Assembly: GCF_001570585.1 (NCBI RefSeq)
Contig: NZ_BBXF01000014.1
Coordinates: forward strand, 1 to 64,000
DNA length: 64,000 bases
From: Herbidospora daliensis
Lineage (GTDB): Bacteria; Actinomycetota; Actinomycetes; Streptosporangiales; Streptosporangiaceae
Reading direction: 5' to 3'
The notes under the pieces are model-generated. The model saw only the letters and a list, made by a program, of their open reading frames with translations. It searched no databases and had not been told where the DNA came from. Shown piece after piece: positions 9,607 through 22,145 of the stretch; position 1 is the first letter of the stretch; every line of letters begins with the position of its first letter. A program made the translations under genes and the position numbers.

Positions 9607-10518
9607 TCAGCTCTCCAGCACGTAGAGCACGAACCCCTCGTCGTCGACGATGGTCCGGGTGAAGCCGAGCCGCTCCAGCAGCCTGACCGAGGCCGCGTTG
9701 CCGCCGTGGGGGTCGGCGTGGAGCGGCCTCACCTGCTCCTTCTCCAGGAACAGGGTCAGCGCGCGGGTGCCGACGCCGCTCCCCCAGAACTCGCGCCCCA
9801 GCCAGTAGCCCAGGAACCGCCGGTCGCCCTCCCACCACGCGATGACGTTGCCGGCGATCTGCCCGCCGACCTCGACGGTCTGCACGTGGTTGGCCTTGTC
9901 GGGGAAGATGTTCCGCCGCCAGTGGTTCAGGAACCTCTCGCGCTCGCGGGCGGGGAACCGGGAGCGGCGGGTGGCCTCCGGGTCCTGTTCCTGGGCGTGG
10001 AAGGTCTCCAGGTCGGAGTCTCTGACGTCTCTCAGGCGAACGTGCATTCGCAGGCGCGCGAGGTCGTCCACGTCCTTCTCCCTCCGGGGCAGGCCGGGCA
10101 CCCAGACCGGCATCATCTCCTTGATCTCGATCTGCGCGGCCAGGCCGATGACGGGGCAGCTCAGGCCGTCGAGGCTGCCCGCGGGGGCGTCGAGCAGGCC
10201 CTCGGGCCAGCGTTCTCCCTTATATGGGCCGCCCGCGACGGTCAGGTCGCGGGCGAGCAGGGCGAAGCTGACCTCGACCCCGTCGCGGCCGAAATCGCGC
10301 TGCTGGTCGCGCGGCGGCCCCGGCTGCGGGACGAACCCGCGGGCGAGCAGGGCCGCTTCGAGCCGGTCGGCGTCGTCGGCCCAGGCGAACCAGTCGACGT
10401 CGACGTGGTCGCGGGTCACCTCGCCCAACGTGAAGTCCATCGCCCAGCCGCCCCGCAACCAGACGTCGAACCCCATTCCGGCGATCTCGGCGATCGCCGT
10501 CAACTGGCGCTCTCTCAC
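9607..10518 (-). CDS. Fusion of ANT(2'')/Lnu-like nucleotidyltransferase and GNAT acetyltransferase
   Basis: A single ~303-aa frame holds two enzymatic modules. Residues about 1-150 resemble aminoglycoside/lincosamide nucleotidyltransferases: GGWAMDF at 23-29 and the acidic HVDVDWF at 39-45, which would hold the metal-binding Asp residues. Residues about 158-303 are a GNAT domain (starting MHVRLRDVRDSDLE; acetyl-CoA loop GREFWGSGVGTRAL; then NAASVRLLERLGF). The GTG at 10518 overlaps the upstream SDR stop as GTGA, so translation is coupled. Both halves occur in antibiotic-modifying enzymes, but the substrate cannot be read from sequence. An in-frame internal Met at residue 158 could also give a separate acetyltransferase. 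Confidence 0.8.
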   Translation of the reverse strand: MRERQLTAIAEIAGMGFDVWLRGGWAMDFTLGEVTRDHVDVDWFAWADDADRLEAALLARGFVPQPGPPRDQQRDFGRDGVEVSFALLARDLTVAGGPYKGERWPEGLLDAPAGSLDGLSCPVIGLAAQIEIKEMMPVWVPGLPRREKDVDDLARLRMHVRLRDVRDSDLETFHAQEQDPEATRRSRFPARERERFLNHWRRNIFPDKANHVQTVEVGGQIAGNVIAWWEGDRRFLGYWLGREFWGSGVGTRALTLFLEKEQVRPLHADPHGGNAASVRLLERLGFTRTIVDDEGFVLYVLES

Positions 10519-12233: not shown

Positions 12234-12288
12234 ATTCCAAATAAATCGGGCGAATTATGAATAGCGCTGGAAACCCTTAAATAAGGGG

Positions 12289-14571
12289 ATGTCCCGGCGG
12301 GGCGCCGGTCACTCTGAATGCGTGAGACAAGCCATTCTCGCGGTCGATTTCGGCACCTGTTCTTCTTCGGCCGCACTCGTCGGTCCCGGGCGGGTGGAAC
12401 TGGTGAAGGAGCCCGCGTCCGGGCTCTGGTCGTGGCCGTCGGTGGTGTGCCTGGCCGGTGACACCCTCCTCGTCGGCACCCTCGCCGACAACCGCAAGAC
12501 CATCGTCGCGCCCGACCGGTTCCGCGACGAGTTCAAGCGCGAGCTGCGGTCCGACGCCCGCATCGACCTGGGCGGGCGGGTCGTCACCGCGTCGGAGCTG
12601 GTCATGACGATGATCCGGGCGCTCAAGGGTGAGGCCGAGCGGATCTCCGGGGGCCCGGTCGAGCGGGCCGTGCTGACCGTGCCGGCCTCCTACGGCGAGG
12701 GCGATCCCCGGCGGGCGCTGATGGTCAGGGCCGCCGAGGGCGCCGGGTTCGGGCTCGTCGAGCTGCTCGCCGAGCCGGTGGCCGCCGCGCTCGCGCCGCT
12801 GGCCGGGGCGCCGCCGGTGCCCGGCGACCTGCTGCTCGTGTACGACTTCGGCGGCGGCACCTTCGACTGCGCGCTGGTCAGGGTCGGGGAGCAGGGCGTC
12901 CACGAGATCCTCGGGCACGCCAGCCTCGACGACTGCGGGGGCGGCGACGTCGACGCGCTGCTCTACCACGAGCTGGTGGCGCAGCTCCCGTCCGGGCCGC
13001 CGCCGGGCCACCGGCACCAGGTTCTGGTGCGGGATCTGGCCAAACGCGTCAAACACCAGCTCAGCGACGTGAGCCCGGGGGAGGCGATCTTCGAACCGGC
13101 CGGGACGCTGCTCTCCCTGACCGCCGGGCGGCTGGCGGAACTGGTGGTGCCGGTGCTCGACCGGACCACCACCTGCTGCCTGGACCTGCTGAGGCGGTGC
13201 GGGGTCGCGCCCGAGCAGGTCACCTCGGTGGTCATGGTGGGCGGCAGCACCCGGATGCCGGTGATCACCGACGTCGTGATCCGCGCCTTCGGCCGCCCGC
13301 TGCGGCACACCCGCGACCCCGACCTGGCGGTCATCCAGGGGGCCGCCGTGTGGGCGGGGCTGGCGCACACCCGCACCTCGGCCGCCTCGCCTCCGGCCGC
13401 CGGGGAGGTGCCGTTGCGCTGGGAGATCCCGGGGCGGTGGGGGGTGCTGCAGAAGTGGCGGGTCGCCGAGGGCGACCTGGTCGAGGCGGGCGGCCTGCTG
13501 GGTTCGGTCCGCCTCCCGGATGGAGCGCTCCACGACCTGGCGTCGGGTGGAGAGGGGCCGATGACGGTTCAGGCGCTCCACTACGACGCGGGCACGGCGG
13601 TGACCTCCGACGACTGGCTCGTCACGGCCCGGCCGCGACCCGCCGAGCCCGTCTCGCCCCCGGGGAGGGTGCGGCACACCATCCAGGCGACGGACGAGGT
13701 CTCCCACCTCGAACTGGTCGAGGTCGACGGGCGTCTCGTGGTCGTCACCTCGGAGAACGAGCACGTGGTGATACGCGACGCCGAGACCGGCCGGCGGCTC
13801 CGCGACCTGCCGGTGGAGTCGGGCGTCACCGCCTTGGCGGTCCTGCCCGGTGACGGCGAGCCCGTCGTCGTCACCGGGGACGACGACGACTACGTGACGA
13901 CGTGGCACGCCTCCACCGGGGAGAAGCTCGACGAGGTCGACTACGGCGCCACGATCACCGCGCTGGCCGTCTCCCTCGGCGCTGGAGGCCGCCACCTGGC
14001 CGTCGGAAACGCCGATGGCGAGCTCCGTGTCGAGGCCGTGACCGGCGGGGCGTTGTCGTGTCCGGCTCCCCTCTTCGAGGTCTCCGAGAGGATCAGGTCC
14101 CTGGCCTTCCTGGACGACCGGGTGGCCGTCGCCACCGGTGACGACGTCTCCACGATCGACCCGGACGACCCCGAGGAACCGGACCAGTACGACTACGACG
14201 AGGACGACGACCTCGACGTGGTGTCGGTCGCGGCCGCCGGCCTCGACGGCCGCCCGCTGCTCGCCGTCGCCGGGGACGACGACCGTCTGGTGCTCCGGTT
14301 CCCGCTGGAAGACCGGCACTACGCCTACCTCGACTGCGACGGCGACCAGCGGGCCGTCGCCTTCGGAACGCTCCAGGGGGCCATGGTCCTCGTCAGCGGG
14401 GGCGACGACGGGCGGCTCCGGGTGTGGGACGTGCGGCAGCGGAGGGTCCTGCACCTCTTCGAAGACCACAACGACTGGATCAACGCCGTCGCGATCGCGA
14501 CCTGGAACGGCCGCACCTTCGTGGCCAGCGGCGGCGACGGCCAGCTCATCCAGATCTACGAGCTCGACTGA
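12289..14571 (+). CDS. Hsp70-type ATPase fused to lipoyl-like and WD40-like beta-propeller domains
   Basis: A 760-aa protein with an N-terminal actin/Hsp70 nucleotide-binding domain: phosphate-1 loop ILAVDFGTCSSS (about 16-27), phosphate-2 YDFGGGTFDCAL (about 185-196) and the GGSTRMP motif near 318. The usual peptide-binding and lid domains are missing. Instead residues ~378-447 look like a biotinyl/lipoyl barrel (WRVAEGDLVEAGGLLGSV) without an attachment lysine, and ~460-760 form WD40-like blades ending GDDGRLRVWDVRQRRV and GGDGQLIQIYEL. An Asp/Glu-rich stretch lies near 620-640. The ATG at 12289 has AAGGGG directly adjacent; a GTG at 12322 (MRQAILAVDFG) is a good alternative. It probably acts as a cytoplasmic signalling ATPase. 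A Nudix gene follows 13 nt downstream. Confidence 0.85.
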   Translation: MSRRGAGHSECVRQAILAVDFGTCSSSAALVGPGRVELVKEPASGLWSWPSVVCLAGDTLLVGTLADNRKTIVAPDRFRDEFKRELRSDARIDLGGRVVTASELVMTMIRALKGEAERISGGPVERAVLTVPASYGEGDPRRALMVRAAEGAGFGLVELLAEPVAAALAPLAGAPPVPGDLLLVYDFGGGTFDCALVRVGEQGVHEILGHASLDDCGGGDVDALLYHELVAQLPSGPPPGHRHQVLVRDLAKRVKHQLSDVSPGEAIFEPAGTLLSLTAGRLAELVVPVLDRTTTCCLDLLRRCGVAPEQVTSVVMVGGSTRMPVITDVVIRAFGRPLRHTRDPDLAVIQGAAVWAGLAHTRTSAASPPAAGEVPLRWEIPGRWGVLQKWRVAEGDLVEAGGLLGSVRLPDGALHDLASGGEGPMTVQALHYDAGTAVTSDDWLVTARPRPAEPVSPPGRVRHTIQATDEVSHLELVEVDGRLVVVTSENEHVVIRDAETGRRLRDLPVESGVTALAVLPGDGEPVVVTGDDDDYVTTWHASTGEKLDEVDYGATITALAVSLGAGGRHLAVGNADGELRVEAVTGGALSCPAPLFEVSERIRSLAFLDDRVAVATGDDVSTIDPDDPEEPDQYDYDEDDDLDVVSVAAAGLDGRPLLAVAGDDDRLVLRFPLEDRHYAYLDCDGDQRAVAFGTLQGAMVLVSGGDDGRLRVWDVRQRRVLHLFEDHNDWINAVAIATWNGRTFVASGGDGQLIQIYELD

Positions 14572-14584
14572 GGAGATGACCGAC

Positions 14585-15466
14585 ATGGCCGACAGACAAC
14601 CCGATCTCCTGCGTACCGCCGGCGCGCTCATCTGGCGGGGCGACCCGAAGAACCCCCTGGTCGCCGTCATCAACCGGACCAAGAAGAACGACTGGTGCCT
14701 GCCCAAGGGCAAGCTCGACCCCGGTGAGCACCTCATCGCGGCGGGATTCCGGGAGGCCGTCGAGGAGACAGGGCTGAAGATGACCTTCGGCCGGTGGCTG
14801 ACCACCGTGAAGTACCGCAAGAAGGGCTGGAAGCGGCGGACCGACTACTGGGCCGCGCACTCTCCCGAGGGCGACTTCGTGCAGAACAGCGAGGTCAACC
14901 GGCTCCATTGGAAGACGCTCGACGAGGCCGAACGGCTGCTGACGGAGTCGCGCGACGCGCCGGTGGTGCGCGCCTTCGAGGCCAGGACCGCCGTGACCAA
15001 GGTCCTGATCATGGCCGTCCACGGGACTCTTGAAGGCGGCGACGACGGCTGGCAGGGCAAGGGCCGGATCCGGCCGCTCGACGCTCGGGGTCTCTGGCAG
15101 GCCGACCGGCTGCACGGCGTCCTCAACGCCTACCGGCCCTCCTATGTCGTGGCCGGTCAGAGCGAACGTTGCCGGCAGACCCTCGGCCCCTACGCCACCG
15201 AGCAGGGCTTGGGCATCCGCAACGAGAAGCTGCTCACCAAGAAGGACTTCGAGCCGAACTGCGCGCTCCGGATGATCCACACGACGATGGAGGCCGGGGA
15301 GTGCGCGGTGGTCTGCGGGTACCGGCAGCCGGTGGAGGACACGCTGAAGCTGCTGCTGGCGGCCAGGAACGTCGACGACGAGAAGATCGAGTTGTTCCCC
15401 GGCGCCTTCGTGGTCGTCCACTACACCGAGAAGAAGATCATCAGTCTGGAGCGTTACCTGAACTGA
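14585..15466 (+). CDS. MutT1-like Nudix hydrolase with degenerate histidine-phosphatase domain
   Basis: A ~293-aa two-domain protein like mycobacterial MutT1. The Nudix box is complete at residues 42-64 (G-x5-E-x7-REAVEETGL), so phosphohydrolase activity on nucleotides such as 8-oxo-dGTP or diadenosine polyphosphates is likely. The C-terminal half (about 140-293) keeps the phosphatase outline (RPLDARGLWQADRL, then SERCRQT), but the catalytic RHG is VHG at 145-147 and the second active-site region reads VVCGYRQPVED. The phosphatase is therefore probably inactive. The ATG at 14585 is chosen for the GAGGAG 9 nt upstream; an ATG at 14576 is too close to it. It is probably co-transcribed with the Hsp70-like gene. 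Confidence 0.88.
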   Translation: MADRQPDLLRTAGALIWRGDPKNPLVAVINRTKKNDWCLPKGKLDPGEHLIAAGFREAVEETGLKMTFGRWLTTVKYRKKGWKRRTDYWAAHSPEGDFVQNSEVNRLHWKTLDEAERLLTESRDAPVVRAFEARTAVTKVLIMAVHGTLEGGDDGWQGKGRIRPLDARGLWQADRLHGVLNAYRPSYVVAGQSERCRQTLGPYATEQGLGIRNEKLLTKKDFEPNCALRMIHTTMEAGECAVVCGYRQPVEDTLKLLLAARNVDDEKIELFPGAFVVVHYTEKKIISLERYLN

Positions 15467-15468
15467 GG

Positions 15469-16092
15469 TCAGTCGAAGGCCAGGTCGAGCCAGTCGCGCA
15501 CCGGACGGCCCGGCACGTGGACCCAGCCGTCGAGGTACTCCCCCGTCTTCGTCACGACGCTGACGTAGCGGAAGCCCGCCGGGTCGAGGCCGGGGTAGCC
15601 GCCGGCGACCAGGTCGTCGTACAGGGGACCGGAGACGACGACCACCAGGTCGGCGGTGCTGTCGCGGACGACCTCGCGCACCTCGGCGGAGTCGAGGAGG
15701 CGGACCAGCCGGACCACGGCCTGGCCGGCGAAGCCCGCCACGGCCTCGTGGACGACGCCCTCGTGGAGGGCGAGCCGGAGTCGCCAGCGGTCGGCTCCGG
15801 CCTCGTTCTCCCCGGCCAGGCGGTCGGCGAGGGCGGTGATCAGGCGGCTGACGAAGCGGGGTTCGTCGAGGTCGGCGGGCATCAGGAAGACGCCGCCGTC
15901 GCCGTTGTACTGGCGGGTGCAGGCGTCGAGCGGCAGGCCGGCCTCGGCCCAGGCGTCGGTGAGGACGGCGTGCAGGGTCTGCTGGGCGGTGATGTGCCGC
16001 CAGTTGCCGCGGACGCTGTAGCCGACCAGGTCGGCGGCGGCGCACAACCGGCGCACGCCGACCGGGGCGCCGTCGAAGGGGTCGGCGGTCAT
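15469..16092 (-). CDS. Class III nucleotide cyclase-like protein
   Basis: A ~207-aa cytoplasmic protein whose outline fits the class III adenylate/guanylate cyclase domain: ADLVGYS (metal Asp at 21), YNGDGGVFLMP (second metal Asp at 65) and RWRLRLALHEG at 103-112, with a following VVRLVRLLDSAEVRE helix. Both metal-binding aspartates are kept; base-recognition and transition-state residues cannot be assigned with confidence, so activity is uncertain. Its ATG overlaps the stop of the upstream Crp-type regulator (ATGA), so the two are co-translated. This suggests that it makes, or senses, the nucleotide read by that regulator. It converges on the MutT1-like gene (2-nt gap). Confidence 0.65.
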   Translation of the reverse strand: MTADPFDGAPVGVRRLCAAADLVGYSVRGNWRHITAQQTLHAVLTDAWAEAGLPLDACTRQYNGDGGVFLMPADLDEPRFVSRLITALADRLAGENEAGADRWRLRLALHEGVVHEAVAGFAGQAVVRLVRLLDSAEVREVVRDSTADLVVVVSGPLYDDLVAGGYPGLDPAGFRYVSVVTKTGEYLDGWVHVPGRPVRDWLDLAFD

Positions 16093-16769
16093 TGGGCGCG
16101 TTTGGCCAGGCGGGCCGGGTCGAGGATGACGATGCGGCGGTATCCGGTGGACAGGATCTCCTCCTGGCGGAGTTCGCGGAGCACGGCTTCGACGCGGGGT
16201 TTGCTGGTGCCGGTCAGGGCCGCGAGGTCGGGCTGCGACAGCGCGAGCTCCACGGTGTCGCCGGGCCCGGGGATGCCGTGGGTGTCGGCCAGTTCGCGTA
16301 ACACGCGGGCGACCCGCAGCTGGGCCGGGGCGCCGCTGAGGTCGATGCGGCTGCGGGTGGCGCTGCGCAGTTTGGCGCCGATCGCCGAGCTGATCGCGAC
16401 GGCCGCCTCGGGGTGGCCGGTCATGAAGGTGCGCAGGACGTCGTGCCTGATCACGCGGGCGATCAGGGACGACGCCGCCGTGATGGTGGCCGATCGGGGG
16501 CGGCCGTCGAGGGCGGCCAGTTCGCCGATGAGGTCGCCGGCGCCCCGGATGGCGAGCAGGGCCACGCGGCCCGCCTCGGTGGTGCCGGTGACGCGGACGT
16601 ACCCGCTGACGAGGAGGAAGGCGTGCCGGGTCTGCTCGCCCTCGTGCATCAGGACGGAGTCGGGGTCTTTGCCGATCTCGAAGCCGAGAGACAACAACCG
16701 GGTGCGGAGTGCGGGCGGCAGGGAGCCGAGCAGGCTGGCCGGCGGCCATCGATGCACGGAACCGAACAC
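16089..16769 (-). CDS. Crp/Fnr-family transcription regulator
   Basis: A ~226-aa protein with an N-terminal cyclic-nucleotide-binding domain (about 15-130) and a C-terminal winged helix (about 150-220; LSQPDLAALTGTSKPRVEAVLRELRQ). The phosphate-binding cassette keeps GEL at 82-84 and RPRSAT at 90-95, including the Glu and Arg that contact cyclic nucleotide in CRP, so a cNMP ligand is plausible. The GTG at 16769 has only a weak ribosome-binding site. It is coupled to the cyclase-like gene by a 4-bp overlap and divergent, across only 53 bp, from the protease-dynamin operon, which it is well placed to control. Confidence 0.87.
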   Translation of the reverse strand: MFGSVHRWPPASLLGSLPPALRTRLLSLGFEIGKDPDSVLMHEGEQTRHAFLLVSGYVRVTGTTEAGRVALLAIRGAGDLIGELAALDGRPRSATITAASSLIARVIRHDVLRTFMTGHPEAAVAISSAIGAKLRSATRSRIDLSGAPAQLRVARVLRELADTHGIPGPGDTVELALSQPDLAALTGTSKPRVEAVLRELRQEEILSTGYRRIVILDPARLAKRAQ

Positions 16770-16793
16770 GTTCTCATTGTGCGCCCCGCCAAC

Positions 16794-16805
16794 GCTGAAA
16801 TCAGC
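16794..16805. promoter_or_regulatory. Palindromic operator candidate between Crp-type gene and protease-dynamin operon
   Basis: GCTGA-AA-TCAGC is a perfect 5-bp dyad in the 53-bp divergent region, 17 bp before the protease-like gene. It is compact compared with a typical CRP site but is the only clear dyad there, and the region is AT-rich relative to its surroundings. Binding by the neighbouring Crp-type protein is an inference. Confidence 0.45.
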
Positions 16806-16822
16806 ATTTATCGGAGTGAATC

Positions 16823-17377
16823 GTGGACGACGACCTATTTGACTTTTGGGATGAACACCAAGAAATGCCGGATGACAATGAATGGCATCCCCAGCACCAC
16901 TCCGACACCTGTGCCATCGCCGCTCAGGAAGGGGTGCTGGAGGACGTCGGCGGCGTCCGTCCTCCGGAGGAGGAGATGATCGGCGTCGCCGAGCGCGAGG
17001 GCTGGTACACCCCCGGCGGCGGCACCCCGATGCTCGACGTCGGGCGGCTGCTGGCCTATTACGGCCTGGAGGTGGCCCAGCACGTCCACGCCGATCTCGG
17101 GTCGCTGCACGACGCCCTCGGCCGGGGCGAGGGGGTGATCGTCGGGGTGCGGGCGGAGACGCTCGCCGACGAACCCGGCGACCTCGACCTGGCGGCGTGC
17201 TCGGGGATCCCCGGGCAGACGGCCGACCACGCCGTCCGCGTGGTCGGGTTCGAGGGCCGCGACGTCGTCCTGGACGACCCGGCGCGCGGGGTGGGCACGG
17301 TGCCGGTCGAGGTGTTCCTGGAATCGTGGCGCGGGTCGGGCAACTTCATGGTGACGGCGGCCGGGGGCCGGTCATGA
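16823..17377 (+). CDS. Papain-like (C39-type) cysteine protease-like protein
   Basis: A 184-aa protein without signal peptide. After a very acidic N terminus, HPQHHSDTCAIAAQEGVL places a Gln at 24 and a candidate nucleophile Cys at 30. ADHAVRVVGFEGRDVVLDDP supplies a His at 136 and Asp at 151-152, the order and spacing of Peptidase_C39-like domains. The GTG at 16823 follows CGGAG at ~7 nt. It opens a five-gene operon in which each gene overlaps the next by 4 bp, and is followed by two unknown proteins and two dynamin-like GTPases. C39 proteases often trim leader peptides at Gly-Gly sites, but no transporter is present; the target may be a neighbour. Activity is inferred from the triad only. 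Confidence 0.7.
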   Translation: MDDDLFDFWDEHQEMPDDNEWHPQHHSDTCAIAAQEGVLEDVGGVRPPEEEMIGVAEREGWYTPGGGTPMLDVGRLLAYYGLEVAQHVHADLGSLHDALGRGEGVIVGVRAETLADEPGDLDLAACSGIPGQTADHAVRVVGFEGRDVVLDDPARGVGTVPVEVFLESWRGSGNFMVTAAGGRS

Positions 17378-17922
17378 GCGCCAGCCGCCTCGGCACGTTC
17401 ATGTCGGCCGAACTGCGGGCGATGCCGCTGTTCCGCCAGTCGGTCCCGATGGAGTCGGGCCTCGGCTGGCCGATCCCCGTCCGCCACCGGCCGGCGTGGG
17501 ACGGCTCGGCGGCCGGGGTGTTCGTCCGGATCCCGCTGTTCGGGTTCAGGGGGCGGCCCACGGGCGGCACCGACATCTATCCGTTCTTCGCCACCATCAC
17601 CGTCGACTGGCGCACCCGGCGGGCCGTCGAGTACGCCGACCTGCGCTACACCCGGCCGTGGAAACCAGGGAACCGCGACCCCGCCGGGGTGTTCCCGCAC
17701 GAGTCGCTGCGCGGCAGCAAGCGCGCCTACCTGGAGAAACGCGACGCCTTGCTGAGCCTGTACGACGAGATGCTCGACGGCATGCTGCACGACCGCCCGT
17801 TCGGGGCCGGCGACGAGTTCGGCCGGCTGCTGCGCGAGCTGCTCGAACCCCCGCTGGAGCACTACTACCGCGTGCTGGGCCCGGCGTTCTTCGGCCGCTT
17901 CCTCGGGCCGGAGGCCCCGTGA
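17374..17922 (+). CDS. Unknown protein of the protease-dynamin operon
   Basis: A 182-aa soluble protein that I do not recognise. It is rich in Arg and Pro, with a beta-rich centre (GVFVRIPLFGFRGR, FFATITVDWRTRRAVEYADLRY) and an amphipathic helical C terminus (LRELLEPPLEHYYRVLGPAF). There are no transmembrane segments or obvious catalytic motifs. Its ATG overlaps the protease stop (ATGA) and its stop overlaps the next start (GTGA), so its dosage is tied to those partners. It could be an adaptor or a substrate of the adjacent protease. Confidence 0.75.
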   Translation: MSASRLGTFMSAELRAMPLFRQSVPMESGLGWPIPVRHRPAWDGSAAGVFVRIPLFGFRGRPTGGTDIYPFFATITVDWRTRRAVEYADLRYTRPWKPGNRDPAGVFPHESLRGSKRAYLEKRDALLSLYDEMLDGMLHDRPFGAGDEFGRLLRELLEPPLEHYYRVLGPAFFGRFLGPEAP

Positions 17923-18164
17923 CCGACGACGACCTCCCCTATGACGACGACGACCCCGAGTTCGCGCCCGCCGACGACGCGTGGGACGGCTGGGACGACC
18001 AGGACCCCGGCGACCTGTCGCACGCCGCCGCCTTCGACGAGATCAGGTTCGGTACCTCGCTCCCCCACCAGGGCCTGACCGAGGGCGGCGACACCGTCTC
18101 CTACTCCACCTCGTGGAACGAATACTACAACGACCGCACCGGCGAGCAGGTGACCCCGAAATGA
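17919..18164 (+). CDS. Small acidic protein of the protease-dynamin operon
   Basis: An 81-aa, strongly acidic, probably disordered protein: about a third of the first 45 residues are Asp or Glu (DDDLPYDDDDPEF, WDGWDDQDPGD), followed by a polar tail rich in Ser, Thr and Tyr. It has no cysteine or transmembrane segment. The GTG start overlaps the preceding stop and its TGA overlaps the dynamin start. There is no recognisable domain; an immunity-like, inhibitor or charge-bridging role next to the protease and GTPases is only a guess. Confidence 0.7.
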   Translation: MTDDDLPYDDDDPEFAPADDAWDGWDDQDPGDLSHAAAFDEIRFGTSLPHQGLTEGGDTVSYSTSWNEYYNDRTGEQVTPK

Positions 18165-20005
18165 CCTACGAATCTCTCCGCGACGGCGTCCTCGCCCTCC
18201 TGGCCGACGTCGCGGCGATCTCGACCGGCACCACGACCACCCTCCTGGACGAGGCCGCCGCCCGCCTGCGCGACGGCAGGCTGCGCGTCCTGGTCTGCGG
18301 CGAGTTCAAGCGCGGCAAGTCCAGCCTGATCAACGCGCTGCTGGAGGAGCCCGATCTGCTGCCGGTCGACACCTTCTACGCGACGCGGGCGATCGTCTCC
18401 ATCGCGTACGGCGAGACCGAGGTCGTCACCGCCCACACCGGTGACCAGGTGAAGCGGATCACCCGGGCCGAGCTGGCCGACCACGCGGCCGAGGGCGGCG
18501 CCGCCCGTGACACCTCCCTGGTGGAGATCCTGACCCCGAACCGGAAGCTGGCCTCCGGGCTGGTCCTGCTCGACAGCCCCGGCGTCGGCGGGGTGCTGCC
18601 CGACCACACGGCGGCCACGCTGAGCGCGCTGAACACGGCCGACGCGGTGATCTTCGTGACCGACACCTCCCAGCCGCTGATGGCCTCGGAGCTCGGCTTC
18701 CTCCGCACCGCCATGCGCTCGGCCCGCGCCACCGACGACGTGGACGCGCTGATCTGCGTCTGCACCCGCTTCGACAAGGGCGCCGACCGGCAGGAGCTGC
18801 TCGCGAACACGCGCGCGAAACTGGCCGACGTGACCGGCCGCGAGCCGGTCCTGATCCCGGTCTCCAGCGTGGCCCGGCAGCGTTACCTCGCCAAGGGGCA
18901 CGACGACGACCGGCGGCTGGCCAACTTCGACGAACTCGAACGGGTGTTGTGGGCGACGCTGGCCCGCCGCCGCGTGAGGGCGATGCTCGGAGACGGGCTG
19001 CGGGCGGCGGCTGACGGCGTACAGGCCGCGTTGGGACCGGTGGACACCGAGATCGCCGCGCTGGACGCGGCCGACCAGGCCGAGCGGGACCGGATCAGAC
19101 GGGACCTGGAGACGGCCCGCGCCCGCAAGGACACGCTGCGCCACGGCCGCGACTGGCGTGACCGGCTGAGGCGCGACCTCGACGACGCCGCGCGGCGGCT
19201 GCGGGCCACGGCCGACGGCTGGCTCGACGAGGTGTGGGACCGGTTCGAGCAGGACTTCCTCTTCGACGCGTCGCTGACCGGCGACCCGGAAGGGCTCGTC
19301 GGCCGGCTCACCGCGGAGTGCGCGGCCGTGACGACCCGGGTCAACCGCGCCGCGGAGCAGGAGGCGGCCCGGCTCCTGGCGGAGTTCACCACCCGGCACG
19401 GCATCGGCCTCGGCCACGGGCTGACCGGGACGATCGCGATCCCGTCACTGGACCGCCTGCGCGCCGGCCGCGACCGCGCCATGGCCGACCGTCCCGGCAT
19501 CGCCCTGCCCGTCATGCGGGGCAGCTCTTTCGGCGCGGCGATCGGCGCCTCGATCGGCAGCGCGATCGTGCCCGGCCTCGGCACCCTGATCGGCGGCGTC
19601 ATCGGCGCCTGCGCGGGCGCCTTCCGCGAGGTGAAGAGCCGCGCCTTCCAGGACAACCGCCTGGTCAGGGAGAACCTGCGGGCGGAACTCAAACCGGCTC
19701 ACCGGACCGTCTCCCGCGAACTCGGCAACGGGATCACCGACGCCTTCCGCGACCTGGCGCGAGAGGCCGCCGACGACCTGACCGCCCGCCTCACCCAGGA
19801 GATCGAGTCGGCCTCCGAGAGCATCGCCTCGCTCGAACGCGCCTCCCGGACCACGGGAGAGCAGGGCAAGGCCAGAAGGGCGGAGCTCCAGGAGGCCCGT
19901 GGACGCCTGCTGTCGCTCGACGCGCGGGTCCGCCACCTGTCCAACGGCGTGTCGGCCCTGGCCGGGGCCCCCGCCGAGCCCGACGACTCCTGGGCCGACG
20001 AATGA
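18161..20005 (+). CDS. Dynamin-like GTPase 1
   Basis: A 614-aa bacterial dynamin-like protein. The G1 loop GEFKRGKSS is at 47-55, the switch I region TFYATRA near 71-77, G3 DSPGVGG at 138-144 and a G4-like TRFDK near 202-206. Long helices follow (about 310-440 and 520-600), as in the neck/trunk of dynamin-like proteins. Residues ~450-487 form a Gly/Ala-rich hydrophobic stretch (AAIGASIGSAIVPGLGTLIG) suited to membrane insertion. Such proteins remodel or protect membranes (IniA in mycobacteria, DynA/B in Streptomyces sporulation). It is translationally coupled to its neighbours and followed by a second GTPase, which suggests a hetero-oligomer. Confidence 0.88.
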   Translation: MTYESLRDGVLALLADVAAISTGTTTTLLDEAAARLRDGRLRVLVCGEFKRGKSSLINALLEEPDLLPVDTFYATRAIVSIAYGETEVVTAHTGDQVKRITRAELADHAAEGGAARDTSLVEILTPNRKLASGLVLLDSPGVGGVLPDHTAATLSALNTADAVIFVTDTSQPLMASELGFLRTAMRSARATDDVDALICVCTRFDKGADRQELLANTRAKLADVTGREPVLIPVSSVARQRYLAKGHDDDRRLANFDELERVLWATLARRRVRAMLGDGLRAAADGVQAALGPVDTEIAALDAADQAERDRIRRDLETARARKDTLRHGRDWRDRLRRDLDDAARRLRATADGWLDEVWDRFEQDFLFDASLTGDPEGLVGRLTAECAAVTTRVNRAAEQEAARLLAEFTTRHGIGLGHGLTGTIAIPSLDRLRAGRDRAMADRPGIALPVMRGSSFGAAIGASIGSAIVPGLGTLIGGVIGACAGAFREVKSRAFQDNRLVRENLRAELKPAHRTVSRELGNGITDAFRDLAREAADDLTARLTQEIESASESIASLERASRTTGEQGKARRAELQEARGRLLSLDARVRHLSNGVSALAGAPAEPDDSWADE

Positions 20006-21468
20006 GAGAACTGCGCGCCTCGGTGACCACCTCCTTCGAACGGGCCCGGCTGGCCCTGGGCGACCATCCGGCTCTCGATCCGGTACGCCGCTCGCTCGAC
20101 GACCAGGTGTCGAAGCTGCGCGCGCCGATGACGGTGGCCCTGGTCGGCCGGGTCAGCTGCGGCAAGTCGACGCTGGTCAACGCCCTGCTCGGCGGCTACC
20201 GGGTGCCGACGGGCGTCAACGAGCTGACCTTCAACATCGCGATCCTCCGCCACGGCGCCGTGCCCGGCCTGACCGTCCACTACGACGACGGCCGGCCTCC
20301 CGAAAGTCACGACCTCCACGAGCTGGAGGCCCTGGTCGGCCGGCAGGCCAAGGACCTCAAGGGCATCTCCCACCTGGAGGTCGTCGCCGACCTCGACCAG
20401 CTCAGATCCTTCGACCTCGTCGACACGGTGGGCCTGGACGCCCACTTCGGCGACGAGTCGGGCAAGACGCTCGACTTCCTGGGGCGGACGGGCGCGGACG
20501 TGCGGTCGTCGTCCCTGACCCACGCGGCCCGCGCCGACGCCGTCGTGCTGGCCTTCGCCCGCGGCCTGAACCTCGACGACACCGCCCTGCTGGCCGACTT
20601 CAGCGGCCTGGACGTCGCCGGCCTCGGCCCCCTCAACGCGGTGGGGGTGCTGAACAAGGTCGAGATGGGCTGGAGCGCCGACCGCCCCGACCCGTTCCGG
20701 GACGCCGACCGGGTGGCCGCCCGCCTGATGTCCGCGCCGGGCGTGCGGAACACGATGCTGACGATCCTCCCGGTGGCCGGCCTGATGGCCTCGGCCGCCG
20801 GAAGCTGCACCGAGACGGACTTCGCCGACCTGACCACGCTCAGCCGCCTGGACCCCGTCGAACTGGCCGAGCGGATCGACCGCGGCGAGATCTTCTTCGA
20901 GTACGCGGACCTCGACGTCCCCGGCCCCCGGCGGGCCGACCTGGTGCGGCGCTTCAGCGAGTTCGGCGTGGTGACGGCCTGCGGCCTGATCAGGGACGGC
21001 GCCGACCTGCCGGCGCTCCGCTCGGAACTCGCCAACCGGTCACGGCTGACCGCCCTGCGGACGTTGCTGCTCGACCACTTCGGCCGCCGGGCCGACGTGA
21101 TCAAGACGACCGGCGCCCTGGCATGGCTGCGCACCCTGCGCCCGGCAGGCCTCCCGGCGCGGGCCGAACTGGCCTACGGACGGGCGCTGGCCGAACTCGC
21201 CCACATGGAGGCGCGGGAGAGCGTGGCGCTGGAACAGCTCAAGGTCCTGCGGGACGGATACGAGGGACGGCTCGGGCTGTCGCCGGAGGACCTGGAGGAG
21301 TCCCGGCGCGTGCTCGGCGAGTACGGCGACGCCGACCCGCCCGCGGACGTGGGCGACCGGGTCAGACACTGGAGCGAGCTGGCATTCCATCCCGGGTTCG
21401 ACGTGGCGACCCGGAACGCGGCGCGGGTGGTGCGGGCGGCCTTCAGTCAGCGCGGCCGGCGCCAGTAG
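20002..21468 (+). CDS. Dynamin-like GTPase 2
   Basis: A 488-aa GTPase related to dynamin-like/IniC-type proteins: G1 GRVSCGKST at 49-57, a switch region VPTGVNELTFN near 68-78, G3 DTVGLD at 141-146 and a G4-like NKVE. Unlike its upstream partner it has no obvious Gly/Ala-rich membrane segment, and the helical region is shorter. Its ATG overlaps the stop of GTPase 1 (ATGA). Paired dynamins often work together, one membrane-bound and one peripheral, as in IniA/IniC. Its 3' end overlaps the convergent gene by 22 bp. Confidence 0.85.
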   Translation: MRELRASVTTSFERARLALGDHPALDPVRRSLDDQVSKLRAPMTVALVGRVSCGKSTLVNALLGGYRVPTGVNELTFNIAILRHGAVPGLTVHYDDGRPPESHDLHELEALVGRQAKDLKGISHLEVVADLDQLRSFDLVDTVGLDAHFGDESGKTLDFLGRTGADVRSSSLTHAARADAVVLAFARGLNLDDTALLADFSGLDVAGLGPLNAVGVLNKVEMGWSADRPDPFRDADRVAARLMSAPGVRNTMLTILPVAGLMASAAGSCTETDFADLTTLSRLDPVELAERIDRGEIFFEYADLDVPGPRRADLVRRFSEFGVVTACGLIRDGADLPALRSELANRSRLTALRTLLLDHFGRRADVIKTTGALAWLRTLRPAGLPARAELAYGRALAELAHMEARESVALEQLKVLRDGYEGRLGLSPEDLEESRRVLGEYGDADPPADVGDRVRHWSELAFHPGFDVATRNAARVVRAAFSQRGRRQ

Positions 21469-22071: not shown

Positions 22072-22145
22072 TGGAGCGGACGACGGGAATCGAACCCGCG
22101 TAGCCAGTTTGGAAGACTGGGGCTCTACCATTGAGCTACGTCCGC
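22072..22145 (-). tRNA. tRNA-Gly (anticodon TCC)
   Basis: The reverse complement folds as a standard cloverleaf: acceptor GCGGACG pairing with CGTCCGC, D arm AGCTCAATGGTAGAGC, anticodon loop CTTCCAA giving TCC, and T arm CGGGTTCGATTCCCG. It ends TCCA, so the CCA tail is encoded. It is divergent from tRNA-Pro 89 bp away. Confidence 0.97.

Follow-up and report, generated by a model that had tools for sequence, protein, structure and literature searches.

A CRP-type regulator gene coupled to a class III cyclase-like gene, found beside a dynamin operon in Herbidospora daliensis, recurs with varying partners in related bacteria

The first 64,000 nucleotides of contig NZ_BBXF01000014.1 of Herbidospora daliensis (assembly GCF_001570585.1; hereafter, the window) contain a nine-gene block with the order Hsp70-WD40, Nudix-phosphatase, CYC, CRP, C39-like protease, U1, U2, DYN1, DYN2, where CYC denotes a class III cyclase-like protein, CRP a regulator of the Crp type, U1 and U2 two proteins of no recognized family, and DYN1 and DYN2 two dynamin-like GTPases (Table 1). 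The CRP and CYC genes share a 4-bp overlap (ATGA), and in the divergent operon starting 53 bp away, C39, U1, U2, DYN1, and DYN2 each overlap the next gene by 4 bp. This arrangement, including the coupling of CRP to a cyclase-like gene, had been read from the letters alone in a preliminary description of this DNA, and it is confirmed here.

Table 1. Positions of the block, its genes, and adjacent features in the window
Feature	Position	Strand	Remarks
Nine-gene block	~12234-21452 (ends approximate)	.	present or absent as a single unit beside tRNA-Gly
Hsp70-type ATPase domain fused to WD40 beta-propeller	12289-14571	+	start uncertain: 12289 or 12394
MutT1-like protein, Nudix and histidine-phosphatase domains	14576-15466	+	second ATG at 14585
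CYC, class III nucleotidyl-cyclase-like protein, 207 amino acids	15469-16092	-	profile and fold matches
CRP-type regulator, cyclic nucleoside monophosphate (cNMP)-binding domain and Crp helix-turn-helix (HTH)	16089-16769	-	GTG start; T138 at base-reading position
Divergent intergenic region, 53 bp	16770-16822	.	between CRP start and C39 start
C39-like cysteine peptidase	16823-17377	+	Q24, C30, H136, D152
U1	17374-17922	+	no Pfam match at E<=1
U2, small Asp-rich protein, 81 amino acids	17919-18164	+	no Pfam match at E<=1
DYN1, IniA-like dynamin with glycine-zipper stretch	18161-20005	+	Dynamin_N 79.7 bits
DYN2, second dynamin	20002-21468	+	Dynamin_N 34.1 bits; overlaps DYN1 by 4 bp
tRNA-Gly (TCC)	22072-22145	-	3' end toward variable site

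The block is one unit in its gain and loss. Among seven genomes of the genus, the window's own (G000) included, the DNA flanking the block on both sides is present in all seven, while two genomes have the block (DYN1 is present in 2/7) and five lack it at this site. The congener G048 carries all nine genes in the order of the window, and the complete set was seen only in these two genomes. From flank to flank, the window measures ~9.8 kb, compared with roughly 3.8, 1.3, 1.2, 1.4, and 0.1 kb in G029, G099, G111, G101, and G097, respectively; none of the genes called between the flanks in these five genomes matches any of the nine. In G099 and G111, a CutA gene is directly followed by the gene found to the right of DYN2 in the window, and in G029 a single 183-amino-acid gene lies between the two. 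G048, whose contig end coincides with the right side of the block, has a 183-amino-acid gene at a position like that in G029 (the two were not compared). Since the presence or absence of the Hsp70-WD40 and Nudix genes follows that of the other seven, the unit starts earlier than had been described: the genes originally assigned to an island do form a unit, but a larger one. Genes of loci outside the window were called with our own script, which was checked on the window only and may miss small genes; family labels came from profiles seeded with window genes, so that the Hsp70 label may include ordinary DnaK (probably in L250).

The regulator matches Pfam cNMP_binding (60.9 bits) and HTH_Crp_2 (56.5 bits), as Crp/Fnr regulators do, and the cassette GELAALDGRPRSAT includes G82, E83, R92, and S93; its description as a Crp-type protein with an intact cassette therefore holds. 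CYC has no Pfam match at E<=1. When a profile of 30 CYC domains was compared with PDB, however, class III cyclases were the nine best of 16 matches (E<=10), with E values from 6.2e-5 to 0.029, and the predicted CYC model aligned with class III cyclases in all 50 solved matches listed. CYC is thus predicted to have a class III cyclase fold, in line with the assignment previously made by eye. Its key residues are D21, D65, R131, Q61, and K182. The second metal-binding aspartate (D65) is kept in 80/86 CYC relatives; among these 80, D21 is kept in 78, the remaining two being gaps, and R131, the transition-state arginine, is found in 80/80. CYC therefore shares the predicted fold and two metal aspartates with class III nucleotidyl cyclases such as Ma1120, CyaC, and Rv1900c, from which it differs in having no Pfam match, in two further active-site positions (see below), and in often adjoining a CRP gene. 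Two more specific assignments were dropped: as a DUF2652 cyclase (PMC4886424) for want of a Pfam match at E<=1, and as PycC for want of a PADLOC match at E<=0.1, although PADLOC includes a PycC model and CYC and PycC have the general fold in common.

CYC relatives are common in the order, with matches at E<=0.001 in 128/200 genomes and up to 13 per genome; a CYC profile at E<=1e-8 found them in 8/296 genomes across the phylum, namely, that of the window and seven others of its class, a share not directly comparable with the former because query and limit differ. In a plasmid collection, nine records hold a CYC relative: eight are from Streptomyces, and the ninth, a Nonomuraea record of 11.85 Mb, is evidently chromosomal. 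A CRP gene lies within three genes of 57/88 CYC genes, in 52 cases on the same strand and upstream of it (counting also regions truncated by a contig end), and within three genes in 55 of the 86 regions chosen by CYC alone. The latter count omits the window, its congener, and the dynamin-fetched regions L072-L082 (of which L074 holds CRP, CYC, dynamins, and Hsp70), as well as the duplicates L150, L152, and L160, and L165, where no CYC gene was called; several of the 86 regions share one genome. Judged by Pfam, the partners of CYC among the proteins tested comprise HEAT repeats (below cut-off), OmpA, vWA, CHAT, caspase, nSTAND3, DUF4407, dynamin, and Hsp70-propeller proteins, and genes beside CYC relatives encode CHAT (L083, L116, L149, and L158), caspase (L158), nSTAND3 (L103), and vWA (L102) proteins. 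The most general finding is thus the CRP-CYC pair with its varying partners, not the island, and its recurrence beside so many partner genes hints at a little-known signaling toolkit in soil bacteria.

In the 55 linked CRPs, the phosphate cassette is largely kept (G in 54, E in 48, R in 46, and S in 29). The base-reading position corresponds to S128 in E. coli CRP, to N143 in PycTIR, which recognizes uracil, and to a glutamate in a cyclic GMP binder (PMC11224242). Placed by hand, this position holds N in 25, T in 19, D in 7, E in 2, and I in 2 of the linked CRPs, and T in the window. Across 51 CRP-CYC pairs, CYC is without glutamine at position 61 in 6/8 pairs with an acidic CRP versus 4/43 others. 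Those four CYCs have no metal site, and leaving them out gives 0/39 (Fisher, 2.6e-6 for 6/8 versus 0/39), a step that favors the count, as they are the sole nonacidic pairs without glutamine. Six of the eight acidic cases fall into one clade of the CYC tree, so that about two events are involved and the association is suggestive only. At the level of sequence, the covariation of the CRP base position with CYC position 61 hints at several messengers.

Several further features of CYC relatives deserve mention in their own right. In the tree, the window CYC is closest to a CYC of Kitasatospora indigofera (L155; support, 0.95). Three genes upstream of the latter lies a gene for a 386-amino-acid protein that matches DO-GTPase2 only weakly (18 bits; cut-off, 27). 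Five loci (L116, L126, L134, L142, and L149) show, in a row, a CYC without the GDG metal site, a long gene, and a complete CYC, possibly an active/inactive cyclase pair; the long gene of L116 and of L149 encodes a CHAT protein. CYCs near dynamins or Hsp70 (L074, L085, L087, L122, L224, L225, and L242) have Asp- or His-rich C-terminal tails, some of them with a hydrophobic stretch; the window CYC is without such a tail, and there U2 and the N terminus of C39 are Asp rich instead. Finally, some CYCs end in a short motif resembling NxFxGxVDASxAxFG, which recurs near the N terminus of the directly downstream protein. A profile built from eight tails and run on 1681 proteins matched the directly downstream gene in 11 loci (L094, L097, L103, L107, L112, L114, L124, L127, L130, L144, and L223) at E values between 7e-6 and 0.5; five of these matches are weak, with values of at least 0.016. 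In L099, three to four genes before CYC, the motif is also present at the C terminus of a 310-amino-acid protein (5.9e-8) and near the N terminus of the next, 747-amino-acid protein (1.4e-3). We take this motif to resemble bacterial amyloid signaling motifs.

Both dynamin-like GTPases are recognized by Dynamin_N, as their earlier assignment implied. DYN1 aligns with IniA in PDB (6j72) at an E value of 1.5e-24 over residues 26-571, and DYN2 aligns with 5owv_C, a dynamin-like protein of Campylobacter jejuni, at 1.3e-10. By sequence, the two resemble the IniA/IniC pair, IniA only having been compared directly. Among PADLOC profiles, DYN1 matches LeoA (7.4e-26) and LeoBC (1.1e-19), and DYN2 matches LeoA at only 5.7e-4. 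The C. jejuni DLP1/DLP2 and Leo dynamins are further pairs to which DYN1 and DYN2 can be likened, and we know of no signaling pair or protease associated with either. A seven-sequence DYN2 profile at E<=1e-25 detected 36/236 genomes of the class, including G289, whose protein is in the profile. The neighborhoods of 20 of the 37 other listed places were fetched (from family f6, only that in G246), and L225 was added. These 21 DYN2 regions hold DYN1 in 21/21 cases and an Hsp70-family gene in 14/21, so that the constant core consists of DYN1, DYN2, and often Hsp70; in 14 regions of the order, DYN1 and an Hsp70-family gene were each found in 13. Elsewhere in the window's own genome, there is a second pair of Dynamin_N genes (C4:389-3843; L080), in whose neighborhood (C4:1-16000) no called gene matches a window protein at E<=1e-3.

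How often do the signaling pair and the dynamins meet? A dynamin lies within two genes of CYC in 4/86 regions (L085, L087, L224, and L225), where a crude expectation based on the dynamin density of one genome is 0.24; weaker dynamin matches near CYC in L116 were not counted because the limit was E<=1e-8. L225 (family f39) holds CRP, CYC, DYN2, DYN1, and an Hsp70-WD40 fusion like the window's. L242 (f19) holds CYC, DYN2, DYN1, and three Hsp70-family genes without a CRP. L221 (f20) contains DYN2, C39, a 193-amino-acid protein, U1, DYN1, and Hsp70, and L077, from another genus of the window's family, contains C39, the dynamin pair, and Hsp70. In L078, a 129-amino-acid CRP-like gene lies near the dynamin pair, with no CYC. 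Large parts of the set recur together in other families (L225, L242, and L221), the full nine genes only in the window and G048. Exact conservation of the five-gene operon proved too strict a test of the idea, because U1 is found in 2/200 genomes of the order, one of them that of the window, and the L221 relative was met only via the C39 profile.

C39 matches Pfam C39_2 at 21.9 bits, below the gathering cut-off of 24, so the protease assignment is supported by its residues and not by its score: Q24, C30, H136, and D152 are identical in three sequences, including a 43% identical relative, and peptidases of family C39 use a Cys-His-Asp triad with an oxyanion glutamine. The putative papain-like fold is assigned from Pfam and these residues. 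At E<=0.001, the 200 genomes of the order gave six C39 matches, three of them weak; the three strong ones (window, G048, and G060/L077), whose neighborhoods were examined, all lie beside a dynamin pair. At E<=1e-8, a 394-genome draw of the class gave matches in 9 genomes, 7 of them from one genus (g48; 1e-9 to 1e-13), and in L229, the one g48 locus looked at, no dynamin was called nearby. The U1 relative in L221, 46% identical, clusters with C39, both dynamins, and Hsp70. U2 has a relative among called proteins only in G048 and none in six other loci searched. Upstream of CYC, the Hsp70-WD40 protein matches Pfam HSP70 (141 bits) and WD40 (38.3 bits) among the best 25 of 30 families, and the Nudix protein matches NUDIX (52.5 bits), His_Phos_1 (26.4 bits), and NCBIfam MutT1 (170 bits, under its cut-off of 475). 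The 53-bp region between the divergent genes contains an inverted repeat, GCTGA-AA-TCAGC, and 49/53 of its bases are identical in G048 (hand count).

Taken together, we propose that a cyclic nucleotide made by CYC switches CRP, which in turn controls a membrane-remodeling operon, and that the block functions as a single unit and is transferred or lost in its entirety. We hold this reading tentatively, at a little less than an even chance. A cue, most likely envelope damage or infection, would prompt CYC, as a class III-type cyclase, to make the nucleotide; the cotranslated CRP would bind it and switch the 53-bp divergent promoter region, and the C39-U1-U2-DYN1-DYN2 operon would be made. The IniA/IniC-like dynamins would then remodel or seal the cytoplasmic membrane; the Hsp70-propeller protein might serve as chaperone for their assembly or disassembly, C39 might supply a processing or activating step, and the Nudix protein might act as an off-switch for the nucleotide. 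Envelope or phage stress appears to be the likeliest setting by analogy with published work: in vitro, IniA severs membranes, and the authors of that study connect it with membrane integrity (PMC6715688), iniBAC is controlled by one dedicated envelope-stress regulator (PMC5760070), and DynA of Bacillus subtilis confers phage resistance at the population level (PMC8844932). Mycobacterial iniBAC is also a close counterpart of the operon, with paired dynamins, a DYN1 match to IniA over most of its length, and one dedicated regulator, IniR (PMC5760070). In the window, however, the regulator candidate is CRP-CYC instead of a signal-transduction ATPase, and C39, U1, U2, Hsp70-WD40, and Nudix genes are added.

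A number of observations weigh against this mechanism. The position of the transition-state asparagine is V127 in the window CYC, with asparagine in only 5/80 relatives (missing in 75/80), and the adenine-choosing lysine is replaced by glutamine in 67/80; CYC may therefore be inactive or only bind nucleotide. The covariation statistic ignores ancestry, and CYC column 61 ranks third of 183 by normalized mutual information, below two columns without a known role. DYN2 has DTVG as its G3 motif and NKVE as G4, whereas its relatives have DTPG in 18/20 and Asp at G4 in 18/20; the DYN2 GTPase of this genus may be an altered one. Most CYC and DYN2 genes occur apart: 82/86 CYC-picked regions have no dynamin within two genes, and 19/21 DYN2 regions have no CYC. 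As L225, one of the two that do, was known beforehand, the fresh count is 1/20. L225 and L242 are without C39 and U1, and L221, which has both beside the dynamin pair and Hsp70, is without CRP and CYC. No sigma-70 consensus was seen in the 53-bp region, and scans for sigma-70 promoter and terminator patterns found no match. Lastly, loss of IniA in Mycobacterium smegmatis raised drug sensitivity only marginally (PMC6715688).

A broader proposal is possible, though we would sooner doubt than assert it: CRP-CYC may represent a family of cyclic-mononucleotide signaling cassettes that is widespread among filamentous actinobacteria, has so far gone undescribed, and uses interchangeable effectors (dynamin-Hsp70, CHAT, caspase, and nSTAND/HEAT) and more than one messenger, where CRPs with Thr, Asn, or acidic residues would read adenine-, uracil-, or guanine-like bases, the cyclase would be changed to match, and some tails would be joined to the partner by the short amyloid-like motif. 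Among known systems, Pycsar likewise places a class III-type cyclase (PycC) beside a cNMP-binding effector, and the asparagine in 25/55 linked CRPs stands at its uracil-reading position (PMC11224242). CRP differs, however, in joining its cNMP-binding domain to a DNA-binding HTH and not to a TIR or transmembrane effector, and the PADLOC PycTIR match covers residues 21-136, i.e., the cNMP-binding part. The NTP-dependent conflict systems of PMC7159879 also combine a constant switch with variable effectors and share cNMP cyclases, vWA, caspase, and Hsp70 with the loci described here. That paper treats cNMP cyclases as conflict-system parts and once links a CRP-like factor to peptide-processing systems, while the passages cited here contain no stand-alone CRP-cyclase pair and its main text does not use the word dynamin. 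None of the nine block proteins has a Pfam match to the MoxR-vWA or DO-GTPase-GAP1 core among the matches listed (for the Hsp70-WD40 protein, the best 25 of 30 families). Other cyclase-like proteins, some with cNMP-binding neighbors, are described in PMC4886424.

Three alternatives were considered; they and the mechanism favored above are not fully exclusive, and their likelihoods need not add up to certainty. In the first, which we find unlikely but worth taking seriously, the block is a suicidal (abortive-infection) conflict system, with CRP-CYC as a threshold switch and C39 and the dynamins killing or walling off the infected cell rather than repairing it. The CHAT, caspase, nSTAND3, and vWA genes beside CYC, a repertoire shared with the systems of PMC7159879, would fit this scenario, as would the variable site beside a tRNA gene, the DYN1 match to LeoA, and the population-level action of DynA (PMC8844932); yet Pfam, NCBIfam, and PADLOC scans found no known toxin domain in the nine genes, and the relation to IniA points to membrane maintenance. 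Alternatively, a self-contained CRP-CYC pair and a dynamin-Hsp70 unit might have been brought into one block as neighbors without a functional link. Their frequent separate occurrence and the transcription of CRP and CYC away from the operon agree with this, but we consider it improbable given divergent starts only 53 bp apart, the recurrence of the combination in two other families (L225 and L242), and dynamins adjoining CYC in L085, L087, and L224. There is likewise a low probability that CYC, as a dead cyclase, only senses or binds nucleotide while CRP answers the cell's general cyclic AMP: the lost asparagine, the glutamine for lysine, the loss of the second metal aspartate in 6/86 CYCs, and the window CRP's threonine, as in adenine binders (PMC11224242), would suit it, but the aspartate pair and arginine persist in the other 80 CYCs apart from the two gaps, the mycobacterial cyclase Rv1900c is described as active without that asparagine (PMC4886424), and CYC 61 covaries with CRP 138.

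The overall interpretation in the preliminary description is thus partly supported. Its remark that no described system with this set is known to it agrees with our searches of the open-licence literature, in which no paper on a CRP-cyclase-dynamin combination was among the matches listed (no search paired C39 with dynamin). The parts are known; what appears to be new is that the CRP-CYC pair recurs with exchangeable partners and that it occurs next to an operon of the IniA/IniC type. If the favored mechanism is true, it would give bacterial conflict and envelope-stress systems a further branch, coupled to transcription and controlled by a cyclic nucleotide, supply a signal input for IniA/IniC-type dynamins outside mycobacteria, and provide a natural series of cyclase-receptor pairs for testing messenger identity (CYC position 61 and CRP position 138).

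Integration at the tRNA-Gly gene was considered as a possible mechanism for the variable site. A second copy of the tRNA 3' end (28 bases, allowing up to 3 mismatches) was not found in the window, but G029 and G048 show partial matches resembling tRNA-Gly close to the site. On the opposite flank, a gene at 9607-10518 encodes an aminoglycoside-adenylyltransferase-type domain together with a GNAT domain and, being present in all seven genomes of the genus, lies outside the block.

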